Part shown: positions 46,846 through 51,166 of the stretch, piece by piece
How the letters are laid out: the number at the start of each line of letters is the position of its first letter
How positions within the stretch are numbered: the stretch's first letter is position 1
NCBI RefSeq assembly: GCF_001685355.1
Contig: NZ_CP016438.1
Coordinates: 1,178,001-1,242,000, forward strand
Reading direction: 5' to 3'
From: Streptomyces lincolnensis
GTDB lineage: Bacteria; Actinomycetota; Actinomycetes; Streptomycetales; Streptomycetaceae
Length of the DNA: 64,000 bases
Made by a program: the position numbers and the translations under genes
Notes under the pieces: generated by a model
The model's input: the letters and a program-made list of their open reading frames with translations, nothing else
What the model was told of the DNA's origin: nothing
Database searches by the model: none

Positions 46846-48486
46846 TCAGTGCCCGCGGAACGCCTCTTCCAGCCACCAGGAACCCCGGTCCTTGACCACC
46901 TTGGCGTCGATGAGGAGAGGCGCGGAGCGGGGCCCCGCCACCCAGTCGGCGACCGCCTTCAGATCGGTGCGGGTGCGGACGGTCACCGCCTCGAAGCCGT
47001 AGCCGCGGGCCACGGCGGCGATGTCCGTCGGGGGGAACTCGACCGTGTCGAGGGGGTGGCCGTCGGGGCCGAAGTGGTGCACCTCGGCGCCGTAGCCGTC
47101 GTCGTTGTAGACGACGGCCACCAGGGGGAGGCCGAGTCGGCGTACGGTGTCGAGGTCCGCGGCGCCCATCAGTGCGCCGCCGTCGCCGAGGGCGGCCACC
47201 GGGAGCCGGTCCGGGCGGGCCAGGGCCGCGCCGATGGTGGTGGCCAGGCCCAGGCCGATGGACTGGAACGCCTGGGTGAAGCAGAAGCCGTTCTCGTCCG
47301 GCACCGACAGGTACATGCTCGGGTGGCCCATGAAGTTGCCGGAGTCCACGCCGACCACCCGCTCCGCGGGGAGGATGTCGTCGAGCGCGATGCTCAGCGT
47401 GCGGGGGTCGATCCGGTCACGGGTGCTCGTGTCGTCGTAGGCGAGGTCGCGCCACCGCACGCGGGCGGCGATGGCCTCGGCGATGTCGGGCGTCCGGCGG
47501 CCCCGGCGTGGTTCGCCGGCCGTCTCCAGCGCGCGTCGTGCCGTGAGTTCGACGTCTCCGGTGACGGCGAGGTGGACGTCGCGGTGTGCGCCGAGCGCCG
47601 ACGGGTCGTCGTCGATCTGGGCCACGGTCGCGTCGGGGGCGATCAGTTGGCCGTGCCGCATGGTCCACATGTTCAGCGCGCAGCCCCAGCCGACGATCAG
47701 GTCGGAGTCCCGGACCAGTTCGGCCGTCAGGGGTGAGGCGAAGCCGCCGGAGACGTCGAGGGACCAGGGGTTGCCGTGGAAGAGGCCGTTGGCCACGGCG
47801 GAGGTCGCGAGCAGGGCGCCGTGGTGGTCGGCGAGCGCCTCGATCGCGTCCCGGGCGCCGGGTGAGCGGGAGCCCCGGCCGGCCACGAAGACGGGGCGCC
47901 GGGCCCGGTCGAGGGCCTGTGTCAGGGCCGTCACGTCGGCCCGGGTGGGCTCGACGGCGGCGCGGGGCGGGGGTGGTGCGGCCCGGTCGAGGGCGCCGTC
48001 GGGTACGTCCAGGGCCTGCACCGGCAGCGGGAGGTTGAGCAGCACGGTCCGGCGTTCGTGCACGGCCCGGTGCACCGCGGTGAGGGCCTCGGCCACCGCG
48101 TCCCCGGCCGAGGTGACCCGCAGCGGCAGCGCGCCCACCGCCCGCGCCAACGCCTCCTGGTCGACGAAGAAGTTGGACCGCGGCTCGGTCACCTCGGCGG
48201 CCAGGACGAGAAGCGGCGTACGGCTCTTGGCCGCCTCGGCCAGACCTGTCATCGCGTTGGTGAGTCCCGGCCCCTGGTGGACGCTGAGTGCGGCGACGGT
48301 GCCGCTGGTGCGCGCGTACGCGTCGGCCATCGTCGCGGCACCGCCCTCGTGTCGGGCGGCGACGAACCGCGCACCGGCCGCGACCATGGCGTTGGTCAGA
48401 TGGAAGTTGCCCGATCCGACCACGCCGAAGACCTGCGTGATCCCGGCGTCGACCAGGGCCCGCCCGACCGCCTCGGCGACCTTCAC
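46846..48486 (-). CDS. Thiamine-diphosphate-dependent enzyme (acetolactate-synthase-like)
   Basis: 546 residues. The catalytic glutamate is Glu47 in RHEGGAA. The central FAD/DHS-like domain is followed by the ThDP/Mg motif GDGGALMG...NDDGYG. The family covers acetolactate synthases, decarboxylases and carboligases; the substrate is not readable here. The GTG at 48486 overlaps the cyclase stop (GTGA). The protein makes a two-gene unit with the cyclase, which suggests that it acts on the product of that hydrolase or the reverse. Confidence 0.85.
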   Translation of the reverse strand: MKVAEAVGRALVDAGITQVFGVVGSGNFHLTNAMVAAGARFVAARHEGGAATMADAYARTSGTVAALSVHQGPGLTNAMTGLAEAAKSRTPLLVLAAEVTEPRSNFFVDQEALARAVGALPLRVTSAGDAVAEALTAVHRAVHERRTVLLNLPLPVQALDVPDGALDRAAPPPPRAAVEPTRADVTALTQALDRARRPVFVAGRGSRSPGARDAIEALADHHGALLATSAVANGLFHGNPWSLDVSGGFASPLTAELVRDSDLIVGWGCALNMWTMRHGQLIAPDATVAQIDDDPSALGAHRDVHLAVTGDVELTARRALETAGEPRRGRRTPDIAEAIAARVRWRDLAYDDTSTRDRIDPRTLSIALDDILPAERVVGVDSGNFMGHPSMYLSVPDENGFCFTQAFQSIGLGLATTIGAALARPDRLPVAALGDGGALMGAADLDTVRRLGLPLVAVVYNDDGYGAEVHHFGPDGHPLDTVEFPPTDIAAVARGYGFEAVTVRTRTDLKAVADWVAGPRSAPLLIDAKVVKDRGSWWLEEAFRGH

Positions 48487-49271
48487 GACCGCTCCACCAG
48501 GGCGAGCACCCGGGCGGGCGATCCGGATCCGGCGACGATGGGCAGCGGTCCGGCGACGACGACGGAGCCGGTGGCCGGCAGCTCCCCCAGGTTGCGGAGC
48601 TGGGTGAGTCCGTACTTGTCGCTGCCCATGAGGTAGGAGTGGCAGGGGAAGGCCGGGTCGAAGGCGTGTCCGCGCCCGGCGTCGGTCCCCACCGTCTCGA
48701 CTCCGAGGCCGATCACGGGCGCCTCCTGGGCCACCCAGCGGGCGCACTCCGGCGACAGGCCCGGGGTGTGGGGGCCGTTCTCGTCCGCGTTCAGGAAGGT
48801 CTCCTGGGAGTGCGCTCGGGCGTCCCAGCCGGTGCGCAGCAGCAGCCAGCCGCCGTCGGGCAGCGGCCCGTACTTCGCCTCCCAGGCCTGTATGTGCTCC
48901 ACCTCGACGAGGAAGTCCGGGTCCTGCTCCGCCTCGGCGGTGAAGTCCAGTACGGCGGCCGGGGCGATCAGCCGGGAGGCCGGTACCGACGCCACGTCGG
49001 CGAGATCCTTGCCGGTCACCCAGTGGTTCGGGGCGTCGAAGTGGGTGCCGGTGTGCTCGCCGCTGCGGAAGTTGTTCCAGTACCAGGCCGGTCCCCGGTC
49101 GTCGTACCTGCTGATCTCCTCCAGCTCGAACACCGCCGTCTGGCCGAACTGCGGCGGCAGTTGGATCACCGGGGTCGCGGACGACAACGGCGAGGTGAGG
49201 TCGACGACTTCGACCGACCCCCCTCGCAGTGCGGACACCAGCGAAGCGAGTACCGACGGCTGCGCGGACAT
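48483..49271 (-). CDS. Cyclase/kynurenine-formamidase-type metal hydrolase
   Basis: 262 residues. HTGTHFDAPNH (His73, His77, Asp79) is the metal-binding signature of the cyclase family, which includes kynurenine formamidase and isatin hydrolase. FPCHSYLMGSDKYGLTQLRNLGELP lies near the C-terminus. GGGAGGCCGTC precedes the ATG. It is the first gene of the pair with the ThDP enzyme. The substrate is probably a cyclic or acyl-amide aromatic compound; it is not defined. Confidence 0.88.
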   Translation of the reverse strand: MSAQPSVLASLVSALRGGSVEVVDLTSPLSSATPVIQLPPQFGQTAVFELEEISRYDDRGPAWYWNNFRSGEHTGTHFDAPNHWVTGKDLADVASVPASRLIAPAAVLDFTAEAEQDPDFLVEVEHIQAWEAKYGPLPDGGWLLLRTGWDARAHSQETFLNADENGPHTPGLSPECARWVAQEAPVIGLGVETVGTDAGRGHAFDPAFPCHSYLMGSDKYGLTQLRNLGELPATGSVVVAGPLPIVAGSGSPARVLALVERS

Positions 49272-49362
49272 GACGGCCTCCCGGGCGTATGCGGAACTCA
49301 CAGCATGGCAGCAGGAGGTGACGGTCTTTCAAGTGTCGGGGCAGGAGGGCGGGCAAGCGAGA

Positions 49363-49388
49363 GGCCCCGGATCGGATGATCCGGGGCC
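49363..49388 (-). terminator. Terminator hairpin behind the leader peptide gene
   Basis: GGCCCCGGATC (49363-49373) and GATCCGGGGCC (49378-49388) pair perfectly over 11 bp with a GGAT loop. It lies 17 bases after the peptide stop in its direction of transcription. It separates the peptide gene from the cyclase operon. Confidence 0.75.
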
Positions 49389-49404
49389 CGTGGAGCACGC
49401 CGCG

Positions 49405-49602
49405 TCAGTGAGCGCCGAGGTGCAGGTTCGCGCCCGCCTTGACGCCGTCGGCCGAGAGGACGGCACCGGCGTCGGCGCAGACGGTGATCCCCGCGAGGTC
49501 GACGTGGAGGTCGACGGCGACGCCGCCCGCGAGGCCGCCCGAGATGGTGTCCAGGTCGGCGTCGAGGATTTCGGCCGTCTCAATCGGGGAAATGGAGTTC
49601 AT
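49405..49602 (-). CDS. Small double-glycine-leader peptide, possible RiPP or bacteriocin precursor
   Basis: 65 residues. The start at 49602 has the RBS GAAAGGAA. The first 23 residues read like a double-glycine leader, with TAEILDADLDTISGG at 9-23 and Gly22-Gly23. The remaining 42 residues (AGGVAV, single Cys42, Ala/Gly/Val-rich, ending HLGAH) would be the core. It has its own terminator and no modification enzyme or transporter beside it. Such peptides are often exported and cleaved after GG by an ABC peptidase. An alternative start further up would add nine residues. That it is a precursor is inference. Confidence 0.65.
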   Translation of the reverse strand: MNSISPIETAEILDADLDTISGGLAGGVAVDLHVDLAGITVCADAGAVLSADGVKAGANLHLGAH

Positions 49603-50146
49603 GGCGCGCGGTTCCTTTCGCAGCAGCAATTCTTGAAAGCGGCTTACGCCGTGCGGAGGATCGAAGCACGTCGTAGCCGTGCTGGCCAGTCGCCCGGCGG
49701 CGATCCGGGGGATGCTCCGACAACCTGCTTCACCAGCGTTGCAGTGTGCTCACCGAATACACCGAATCCTTCACACGAATTCCCTTCGCGCTGCCCGCGC
49801 GGACGTGTCGGCGCGGCGGCTTCCCGGTTTCCGTATGACCCCGCGGTGAACGGTGTGCAGGTTTGCCGATTTTTTCTGCCGCCGTGCGACCGACCGACCC
49901 CGCTTCCGGCGAACTGCCCGTCACTCAGGTGACGTTCACGTCACTGCGCAGGACGTACCCTCCCTCGGTCCGGCCGCCACTGCACAGCTGCCCGCCCGGG
50001 ACGACGGCCTGGAAGTTGCCGGCCGAACCGTTGCGCCACTTTCCGACTGACGCATCCGAAAAACGTTTCACGTGTGGCCGGGGTAGACTTGCGTCGCCCA
50101 TGCCGGATCACATCGTGCCTGGTCGCACGGCTGCCACAGCGAGGGG
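49603..50146. other. 544-bp region between the peptide and LacI genes
   Basis: No ORF here has a convincing RBS and typical codon pattern. The left part should hold the peptide promoter. Three CACCGAAT-like direct repeats begin at 49751, 49760 and 49772. The right part holds a LacI operator at 50056-50069. The rest shows nothing clear. Confidence 0.5.
50056..50069. promoter_or_regulatory. LacI operator CCGAAAAACGTTTC
   Basis: The 14-mer lies 77 bases before the lacI start and centres on AAACGTTT. The reverse complement of 59387-59400 matches it at 13 of 14 bases, and 59272-59285 shares the core AAAAACGTT. It probably marks autoregulation and a shared regulon. Confidence 0.7.
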
Positions 50147-51166
50147 GTGGACGACATTCCGGTTCGCCCCGCCCGCATCCAGGACGTCGCGGCAGCCGCC
50201 GGGGTCTCGGTGTCCACGGTGTCGAACGTCCTGAACCGGCCCGAGCGCGTCAACGAGCGCACGGCCGCACGGGTCCGCGACGCGGTCGCCGCCCTCGACT
50301 ACGTGCCCCACCCGGGAGCCGCCGGCCTGCGCACCGGCCACTCGTCCTCGATCGGCCTGGTGCTCCCCGACATCACCAACACCTTCTACTCGCGCATCGC
50401 CCGGGGTGCCGCCGACGCGGCCTACGACCACGGCTACTCCCTGGTGCTCTGCCACAGCGCGGACGCGCCGGAGCGGGAGCAGGGCTACTTCACCATGCTC
50501 GTCGAACAACGGGCCGTCGGGGCCGTGGTGGTGCCGCTCAGCGCCGACCCCACCCGGCTCTCACGCCTGCGGGAGCGGGGCATTCCCCTGGTCCTGGCCG
50601 ACCGTGCCATGTCGGCCGAGGACGGCTGTTCCGTCTCCGTGGACGACATCGCCGGCGGCCGCATAGCCGTGCAGCACCTCCTGGAGCGCGGAGCGCGCGA
50701 CATCCTCGTGGTCAACGGCGAGCGCGCGATCCGGCAGTGCGCCGACCGCTACCAGGGCGCCCGGCAGGCCGTCCGCAGCCGGCGCGAGGCGCGGGTGGAA
50801 CAGGTCGTCGCCAAGGAGATGACCGTGGCCTACGGCCTGGAGATCGCCCGCCGGCTCGACGACCTCCCCGACGGGGTCTTCTGCACCAACGACTTCCTCG
50901 CCGCCGGCCTCTGCCACGGCCTGGCCGAGCGCGGCGTACGCATACCCGACGAGGTCCAGGTGGTCGGCTACGGCGATCTCGACATCGCCAGCTTCGTCGG
51001 CACCCCCCTGAGCACCGTCCACCAGCCGGTCGAGGATCTCGGCCGGGCGGCCGTGGAGATGCTGCTCGACGAGGTCGAGGCCCGCGCCGAACACGCCCAC
51101 GAGGCGCGGGTGTTCGCACCCGGACTCGTCGTACGCGACTCCACGCGGCCCGCCTCCGGCGGCTGA
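50147..51166 (+). CDS. LacI-family transcriptional regulator
   Basis: 339 residues. The helix-turn-helix is at about 9-30 (RIQDVAAAAGVSVSTVSNVLNRP). The C-terminal periplasmic-binding-protein-like domain binds a sugar effector (SSIGLVLPDITNTFYSRIARG). The GTG at 50147 is preferred; GCGAGGG precedes it closely. It is not next to a sugar operon: a convergent aldo/keto reductase follows. Its likely target is the glycosidase/MFS/isomerase locus at 59 kb, which carries the same operator. Confidence 0.9.
   Translation: MDDIPVRPARIQDVAAAAGVSVSTVSNVLNRPERVNERTAARVRDAVAALDYVPHPGAAGLRTGHSSSIGLVLPDITNTFYSRIARGAADAAYDHGYSLVLCHSADAPEREQGYFTMLVEQRAVGAVVVPLSADPTRLSRLRERGIPLVLADRAMSAEDGCSVSVDDIAGGRIAVQHLLERGARDILVVNGERAIRQCADRYQGARQAVRSRREARVEQVVAKEMTVAYGLEIARRLDDLPDGVFCTNDFLAAGLCHGLAERGVRIPDEVQVVGYGDLDIASFVGTPLSTVHQPVEDLGRAAVEMLLDEVEARAEHAHEARVFAPGLVVRDSTRPASGG

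Follow-up and report, generated by a model that had tools for sequence, protein, structure and literature searches.

In this study, we show that a small reading frame in a 64,000-nt window of the Streptomyces lincolnensis chromosome (NZ_CP016438.1, positions 1,178,001 to 1,242,000; coordinates are those of the window unless stated otherwise) is a real gene for a double-glycine (GG) precursor peptide of 65 residues. As can be read from the sequences, it carries a GG leader, it shares an upstream element with a paralog that adjoins the only C39 peptidase-containing exporter of the genome, and its family co-occurs with such exporters. We refer to the exporter-linked family peptide as the hub and to an unlinked member, such as the one in the window, as a satellite. 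The reading that we favor, and regard as fairly probable when taken as a whole, is that the gene is a satellite of this remote exporter. The gene would encode an unmodified secreted peptide precursor and would probably be activated together with the hub through the shared element. The exporter, composed of an HlyD-like adaptor, a C39-ABC protein and a second ABC subunit and lying 8 Mb away, would serve the satellite, its C39 domain binding the leader and cutting after Gly23, and the anionic core of 42 residues would be exported. Outside the cell, the core would most likely be an amphipathic beta-sheet acting at the hyphal surface (through surface activity, adhesion or morphology) rather than killing.

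The gene lies on the minus strand at 49405..49602, stop codon included, and its product reads MNSISPIETAEILDADLDTISGG / LAGGVAVDLHVDLAGITVCADAGAVLSADGVKAGANLHLGAH, that is, a leader of residues 1-23 (49534..49602, minus strand) and a core of residues 24-65 (49408..49533, minus strand). The classical double-glycine leader follows the pattern LSxxELxxIxGG. The leader MNSISPIETAEILDADLDTISGG conforms to it, with the glycines at residues 22-23 and Ile, Leu and Ile at -4, -7 and -12, and is conserved in both family alignments; cleavage of the precursor would be expected after Gly23. The core is rich in Ala, Gly and Val, has a net charge of -3 and contains a single Cys at residue 42. Although a TTG start is open nine codons upstream of the ATG, the ATG is preferred because the ribosome-binding site CGAAAGGAACC (49610..49620, minus strand) and the starts of the relatives agree with it; the site is identical or CGAAGGGAA in the relatives. 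Both the GG leader and the strong ribosome-binding site put forward in an earlier, sequence-only reading of this DNA are thus borne out. That reading also gave the gene its own terminator, of which the 11-bp perfect hairpin 3' of the stop codon stands (GGCCCCGGATC-ATCC-GATCCGGGGCC, 49363..49388, minus strand; one of four distinct places in the window with such a hairpin), and the 68-nt stretch containing it folds at -35.5 kcal/mol. The hairpin has no U tract and does not appear in the output of the terminator scan, and its identity as a transcription terminator is likely rather than demonstrated.

Neither Pfam nor NCBIfam gave a match to the window peptide, even at E<=10, and a single-sequence search of 5.8 billion proteins returned one relative, which on its own would have implied a rare gene. 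A profile search, which scored the 7982 candidates with the most shared words, returned 1014 relatives (120 of them listed) and therefore reveals a large family. The closest named record, from S. lincolnensis L4 (L045), has 100% protein identity and three base differences in the gene, all of them synonymous; together with the family found by the profile search, these purely synonymous changes rule out a chance ORF and confirm that the gene is real. Matches to the window peptide at E<=0.01 occur in 201/392 Streptomyces genomes, and a profile of 30 relatives (alignment A1) has matches at E<=1e-4 in 259/392, a count that is possibly low since 15 candidates were scored per genome. At least two family matches occur in 121 genomes and at least three in 25, as counted from a hand-typed list in which some matches may be fragments. 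Paired matches with starts 0.5-0.6 kb apart (G757:C1:3854669-3855360 and G233:C4:95806-96582) suggest that tandem satellites exist. Outside Streptomyces the family is nearly absent: in a class-level sample it was found in 20/296 genomes, all from one of 114 genera, and in an order-level sample in 120/197 genomes from two of six genera, one genome being from the other genus. A formerly nameless ORF of 65 codons now belongs to a peptide set that some two thirds of the sampled Streptomyces genomes contain; it is an orphan by position, as the sequence-only reading had it, and not a lone gene.

The family shares the consensus MNxTPQVETAEISDADLDNVSGG, followed by widely differing cores. D14, L17, D18, G22 and G23 are invariant in alignment A1 (30 rows), and one of V, I, L, M or F stands at each of -4, -7 and -12 in 78 of 79 relatives (all but L051). 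Relatives without a GG site, or contained in larger proteins, had been named beforehand as evidence against a GG precursor; in neither family alignment (30 and 64 rows) does either glycine vary, and the relatives examined are free-standing small ORFs. Over 32 non-independent pairs of other satellites, which do not include the window gene, pN/pS was 0.43 in the leader vs 0.63 in the core, i.e., fewer amino-acid than silent changes in both, and the leader appears to be more constrained than the core.

The source genome, a single contig of 10.3 Mb, contains one Peptidase_C39 domain (contig positions 9,263,121-9,263,516). It forms the N-terminal part of an ABC protein of 728 aa that scores 1020 bits to TIGR03796 (cut-off 853), and its putative catalytic Cys, His and Asp were located by eye in ECGAAS, NHYVV and NDPGKG. 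An HlyD-like adaptor precedes the C39-ABC protein (TIGR03794, 145 bits, under the cut-off of 156) and a second ABC protein follows it (TIGR03797, 893 bits, cut-off 709). With two of three proteins over curated cut-offs, the trio is by its model scores of the NHLM/NHLP type. Alignments of the C39-ABC protein with the ABC-type bacteriocin transporter 4ry2 and with ComA (8hf4) cover its residues 21-726 and 23-726, respectively; multidrug exporters outscore both, by virtue of the ABC part only. The gene immediately 5' of the adaptor gene, 8.0 Mb from the window gene, is that of the hub, a paralogous peptide of 71 aa with the leader MNSTPQVETVEISDAELDNVSGG and the sole other family member found in the source genome. 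The earlier suggestion of distant machinery, and of an ABC transporter with a C39 peptidase to be sought in the genome, thus led to exactly one candidate, beside a paralog with the same type of leader and the same upstream element. Substrates of NHLM/NHLP systems typically carry a nitrile-hydratase-like or Nif11-like leader. Pfam and NCBIfam gave neither for the window peptide, and the hub peptide has no NCBIfam match at E<=0.001; these peptides therefore have no leader of the kind those libraries describe. The interval between hub and adaptor genes contains, by eye, a GC-rich hairpin and then CTTTTG (L042:14440-14500), an arrangement that may raise the level of the peptide above that of the exporter.

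Separation of peptide and exporter is common in the genus. Among the best 80 of 327 loci from named genomes, compared with the three exporter proteins as queries, 43 adjoin an exporter and 37 do not, the locus sequence being short on one side in some of the 37 (e.g., L077). A C39 protein lies 1.1-1.4 kb downstream of the peptide start in 41 of the linked loci, and in L066 and L067, counted with them, the adaptor is present before the contig ends. One locus without a start codon (L072) was left out of peptide counts, leaving 79. The distance between satellite and exporter was compared in the 12 of the 16 best-scoring genomes for which the place of C39 was listed (G000, G022, G122, G140, G141, G153, G222, G235, G239, G292, G295 and G376, as distinct from G342, G242, G201 and G189, for which it was not); in all 12, the satellite is either on another contig than the listed C39 or separated from it by 151 kb to 8.6 Mb, and G022, G122, G153 and G239 each contain at least two C39. 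Over 392 genomes, peptide and C39 occur together in 256, the peptide alone in 3, C39 alone in 42 and neither in 91 (Fisher p 8e-52, a statistic that ignores shared ancestry). The three genomes with the peptide and no C39 are G001 (79% complete), G316 and G352 (both 99% complete), and all three had no match to the adaptor model and no TIGR03796 protein over the cut-off. As G316 and G352 keep the peptide, a satellite can persist without the exporter. Their satellite genes (L036 and L133 in G316, L024 in G352) represent a natural case of exporter loss.

Hub and satellite are also joined by an upstream element. The sequence GTGCTTTGATCC is found upstream of most family members, preceded by a second box (GATTGG or CTGGCC) some 16-18 nt before it. 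At the window gene, the element is TGCTTCGATCC (TGCTTYGATCC; 49658..49668, minus strand), and the second box, identified by eye 5' of it, is GCGACTGGCC (49684..49693, minus strand). The distance from the element to the ATG varies from 55 to 164 nt (55 sites), which points to a DNA element (promoter or operator) over an RNA element. The sequence TGCTTYGATCC has four sites in the 10.3-Mb genome vs 0 for the reversed control, and two of the four precede the window gene and the hub gene. The sites at L043:7530 and L044:7217 were taken as chance, with no GG peptide seen by eye after either; one appears by eye to lie in a transposase remnant and the other behind a cold-shock-like gene. A looser form, TG[CG]TT[CT][GC]ATC, occurs within 220 nt upstream in 70/79 loci and at 7 sites in the 2.81 Mb of remaining sequence (both strands), and the frames after those seven showed no GG peptide. 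Seven of the nine loci without the looser form have variants of one or two bases by eye, and L075 and L090 have none. The enrichment is descriptive and partly circular because the motif was derived from the same family, and a bipartite pattern in the TTT form matched the hub paralog only, the TTC of the window gene falling outside it. We infer from the shared element that hub and satellite may be co-regulated. Because of the leader, the uniqueness of the exporter, the co-occurrence and the shared element, processing and export of the window peptide by the remote exporter would seem well supported, if unproven; the window gene now has a specific candidate exporter, a predicted cleavage site and an upstream element.

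As the sequence-only reading had noted, no maturation enzyme, transporter or immunity gene adjoins the window gene. The neighbors scanned in the window are a cyclase-family enzyme, a thiamine-pyrophosphate enzyme, a LacI regulator and an aldo-keto reductase, all metabolic or regulatory, and no candidate for a modifying enzyme, exporter or immunity protein was found among them. The thiamine-pyrophosphate enzyme, the cyclase-family hydrolase and the LacI-type regulator beside the peptide gene (46849-51166) possibly form a small catabolic cluster. Across the 37 orphan loci, no gene is common to all, and the largest neighbor cluster covers 8/37, the clusters having been built with a simple GC3-based gene caller and including antisense frames; therefore no modification, immunity or receptor gene accompanies the satellites as a rule. 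Several satellite groups, each at a conserved place unrelated to those of the others, can be told apart by gene names assigned by eye: one near a phosphoglycerate-mutase-like gene (L054, L062, L064, L065, L070, L078 and L079), one among Tad-pilus-like genes, not all of which are present in all loci (L052, L053, L056, L058, L087, L114 and L122), and one among sugar-related genes (L046-L050). With the last group, the window type (L045) has in common just a frame antisense to the peptide gene.

These neighborhoods bear on the main rival, which the sequence-only reading had also raised, that the core is a bacteriocin, exported remotely to kill competing actinomycetes, with immunity encoded at an unlinked place or the target absent. 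The exporter models are those of bacteriocin systems, the cores diverge faster than the leaders, and the types of satellites differ between species. Moreover, unlinked GG bacteriocins that use one exporter are described for pneumococcus in the accessible part of PMC7595303, and SCO0753 of S. coelicolor was earlier predicted to be a bacteriocin-like lanthipeptide (van Keulen and Dyson 2014, as cited in the accessible part of PMC6629963). However, class II bacteriocin genes have an adjoining immunity gene, and none was found at the window neighbors or across the 37 orphan loci, which have no possible immunity neighbor in common. In addition, every one of the 200 scored core entries carries a net negative charge, with a mean of -2.9; the entries comprise 79 loci and 121 proteins, with some identical ones among them, and the proteins represent the best-scoring members of the family. 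The hub peptides also show conservation across species (mean column identity 74% over 36). We consider a bacteriocin role possible, though so far unsupported and rather improbable.

The favored satellite reading gives the core a role at the surface, and the predicted structure is consistent with this. Hydrophobic and polar residues alternate along the window core (beta moment z 4.0, alpha z -1.8), whereas the periodicity of the hub core is that of a helix (alpha z 3.4, beta z -0.9). Beta z exceeds 2 in 51 of the 121 proteins and alpha z exceeds 2 in 4; beta alternation is thus not family-wide, and the class-B satellites L054, L062 and L064, and also L080, have neither periodicity. The best of five models of the window peptide has strands at residues 24-36, 39-50 and 53-64 with a pLDDT of about 90 there, the other four having mean pLDDT values of 53-64, and the hub prediction is helical with a mean pLDDT of 59.8. 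The fold search of solved structures (PDB) gave no match at E<=0.001. These models are weak but agree with the residue patterns: the window core looks like a three-stranded amphipathic beta-sheet and the hub core like a helix. We prefer a surface or morphogenetic role, as a conjecture, because the amphipathic cores are anionic, because the loci share no immunity-like neighbor, and because of the expression of SCO0753 described below.

It could also be that the exported core is a signal sensed by other hyphae, reporting density or state as the GG pheromones of streptococci do, and the route by GG leader and C39 exporter is indeed that of CSP and BriC according to the accessible part of PMC7595303. 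However, the satellites have no sensor kinase or regulator as a common neighbor, 42 residues are long for a pheromone, and there are several satellite types with unrelated cores, which makes signaling an unlikely role. We find it still harder to regard the gene as a leftover, i.e., a duplicated precursor whose export or use has been lost. Satellites do persist in the exporter-less genomes G316 and G352, but the leader, the GG site, the ribosome-binding site and the upstream element are all intact, the three changes relative to S. lincolnensis L4 are all synonymous, and the satellite cores of other species have the pN/pS of 0.63 given above. Finally, a lanthipeptide precursor, as would follow from the database name 'type A2 lantipeptide' borne by several relatives and by an S. 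melanosporofaciens peptide whose region also has a Peptidase_C39 (accessible part of PMC13047742), is very improbable: class II lanthipeptides have several Cys plus Ser/Thr in the core and the window core has one Cys, no modifying enzyme was found among the inspected neighbors of the window gene or the hub gene, and lanthionine chemistry is disfavored as a family property because Cys is absent from 43/43 hub peptides and from 20/36 orphan peptides (present in 16/36). This suggests that the label is misleading for the peptide family.

The satellite reading also ties the peptide set to a strongly regulated and unexplained locus of S. coelicolor. According to the accessible part of PMC6629963, SCO0753 is a Cys-free hydrophobic peptide of 77 aa encoded upstream of the exporter genes SCO0754-0756 and the exopolyphosphatase gene SCO0757. 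When a dispersed-growth strain carrying an activated SCO5282 kinase was compared with the sco5282-5283 null strain, no gene was more over-expressed than SCO0753 (log2 6.3), which was almost silent in the null strain; SCO0753-0756 were strongly induced in the dispersed-growth strain, and the authors suggest export of SCO0753 and an effect at the surface. Other reports, of which parts were likewise accessible, describe SCO0753 as up in an aor1 mutant (PMC5733086), sco0756 as up in a ppm1 mutant (PMC5882110) and SCO0756 as slightly down in a copper-related mutant (PMC6414726). SCO0753 is probably the counterpart of the source-genome hub, on the basis of gene order and length: the hub locus has the same order (peptide, HlyD-like, two ABC genes), a 77-aa frame from an upstream ATG, and a Ppx/GppA gene, of the exopolyphosphatase type, 3' after one extra MFS gene. 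The difference is that SCO0753 would be an exporter-linked hub, whereas the window gene lies apart from the exporter, as a satellite whose core is another one. More tentatively, we envisage a distributed secretion regulon across the genus, in which an NHLM-type exporter, a helical hub and scattered satellites with a common leader and promoter element and different anionic cores, many of them amphipathic beta-sheets, might cover or alter the surface of the hyphae and govern pelleting, as a peptide layer separate from SapB and the chaplins. Our analysis also suggests that mining restricted to the surroundings of exporters will miss satellites.

Our literature search, with most subscription journals outside its reach, found no earlier description of Streptomyces satellites in the texts available to it. 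That one C39 exporter can serve remote GG peptides is already known from pneumococcus: ComAB/BlpAB handle several GG peptides from different loci (accessible part of PMC7595303), and a common leader with different cargos is what the Streptomyces set shares with them. However, the pneumococcal cargos are known bacteriocins and pheromones, whereas on the Streptomyces side the exporter would be of the NHLM type and the cargos are anionic peptides with putative roles. The exporter trio of the source genome resembles the NHLM/NHLP systems (TIGR03794, TIGR03796 and TIGR03797), which differ in that the peptides described here are without a library-described leader and in that most of what is described here concerns unlinked satellite genes. 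The same idea has been proposed from the side of the exporter, in that orphan LanT/C39 exporters may handle bacteriocins whose genes lie at other genomic places (PMC3951391); the accessible part of that paper gives lanthipeptide clusters and names no satellites of the window family, for which our analysis starts from the peptide.
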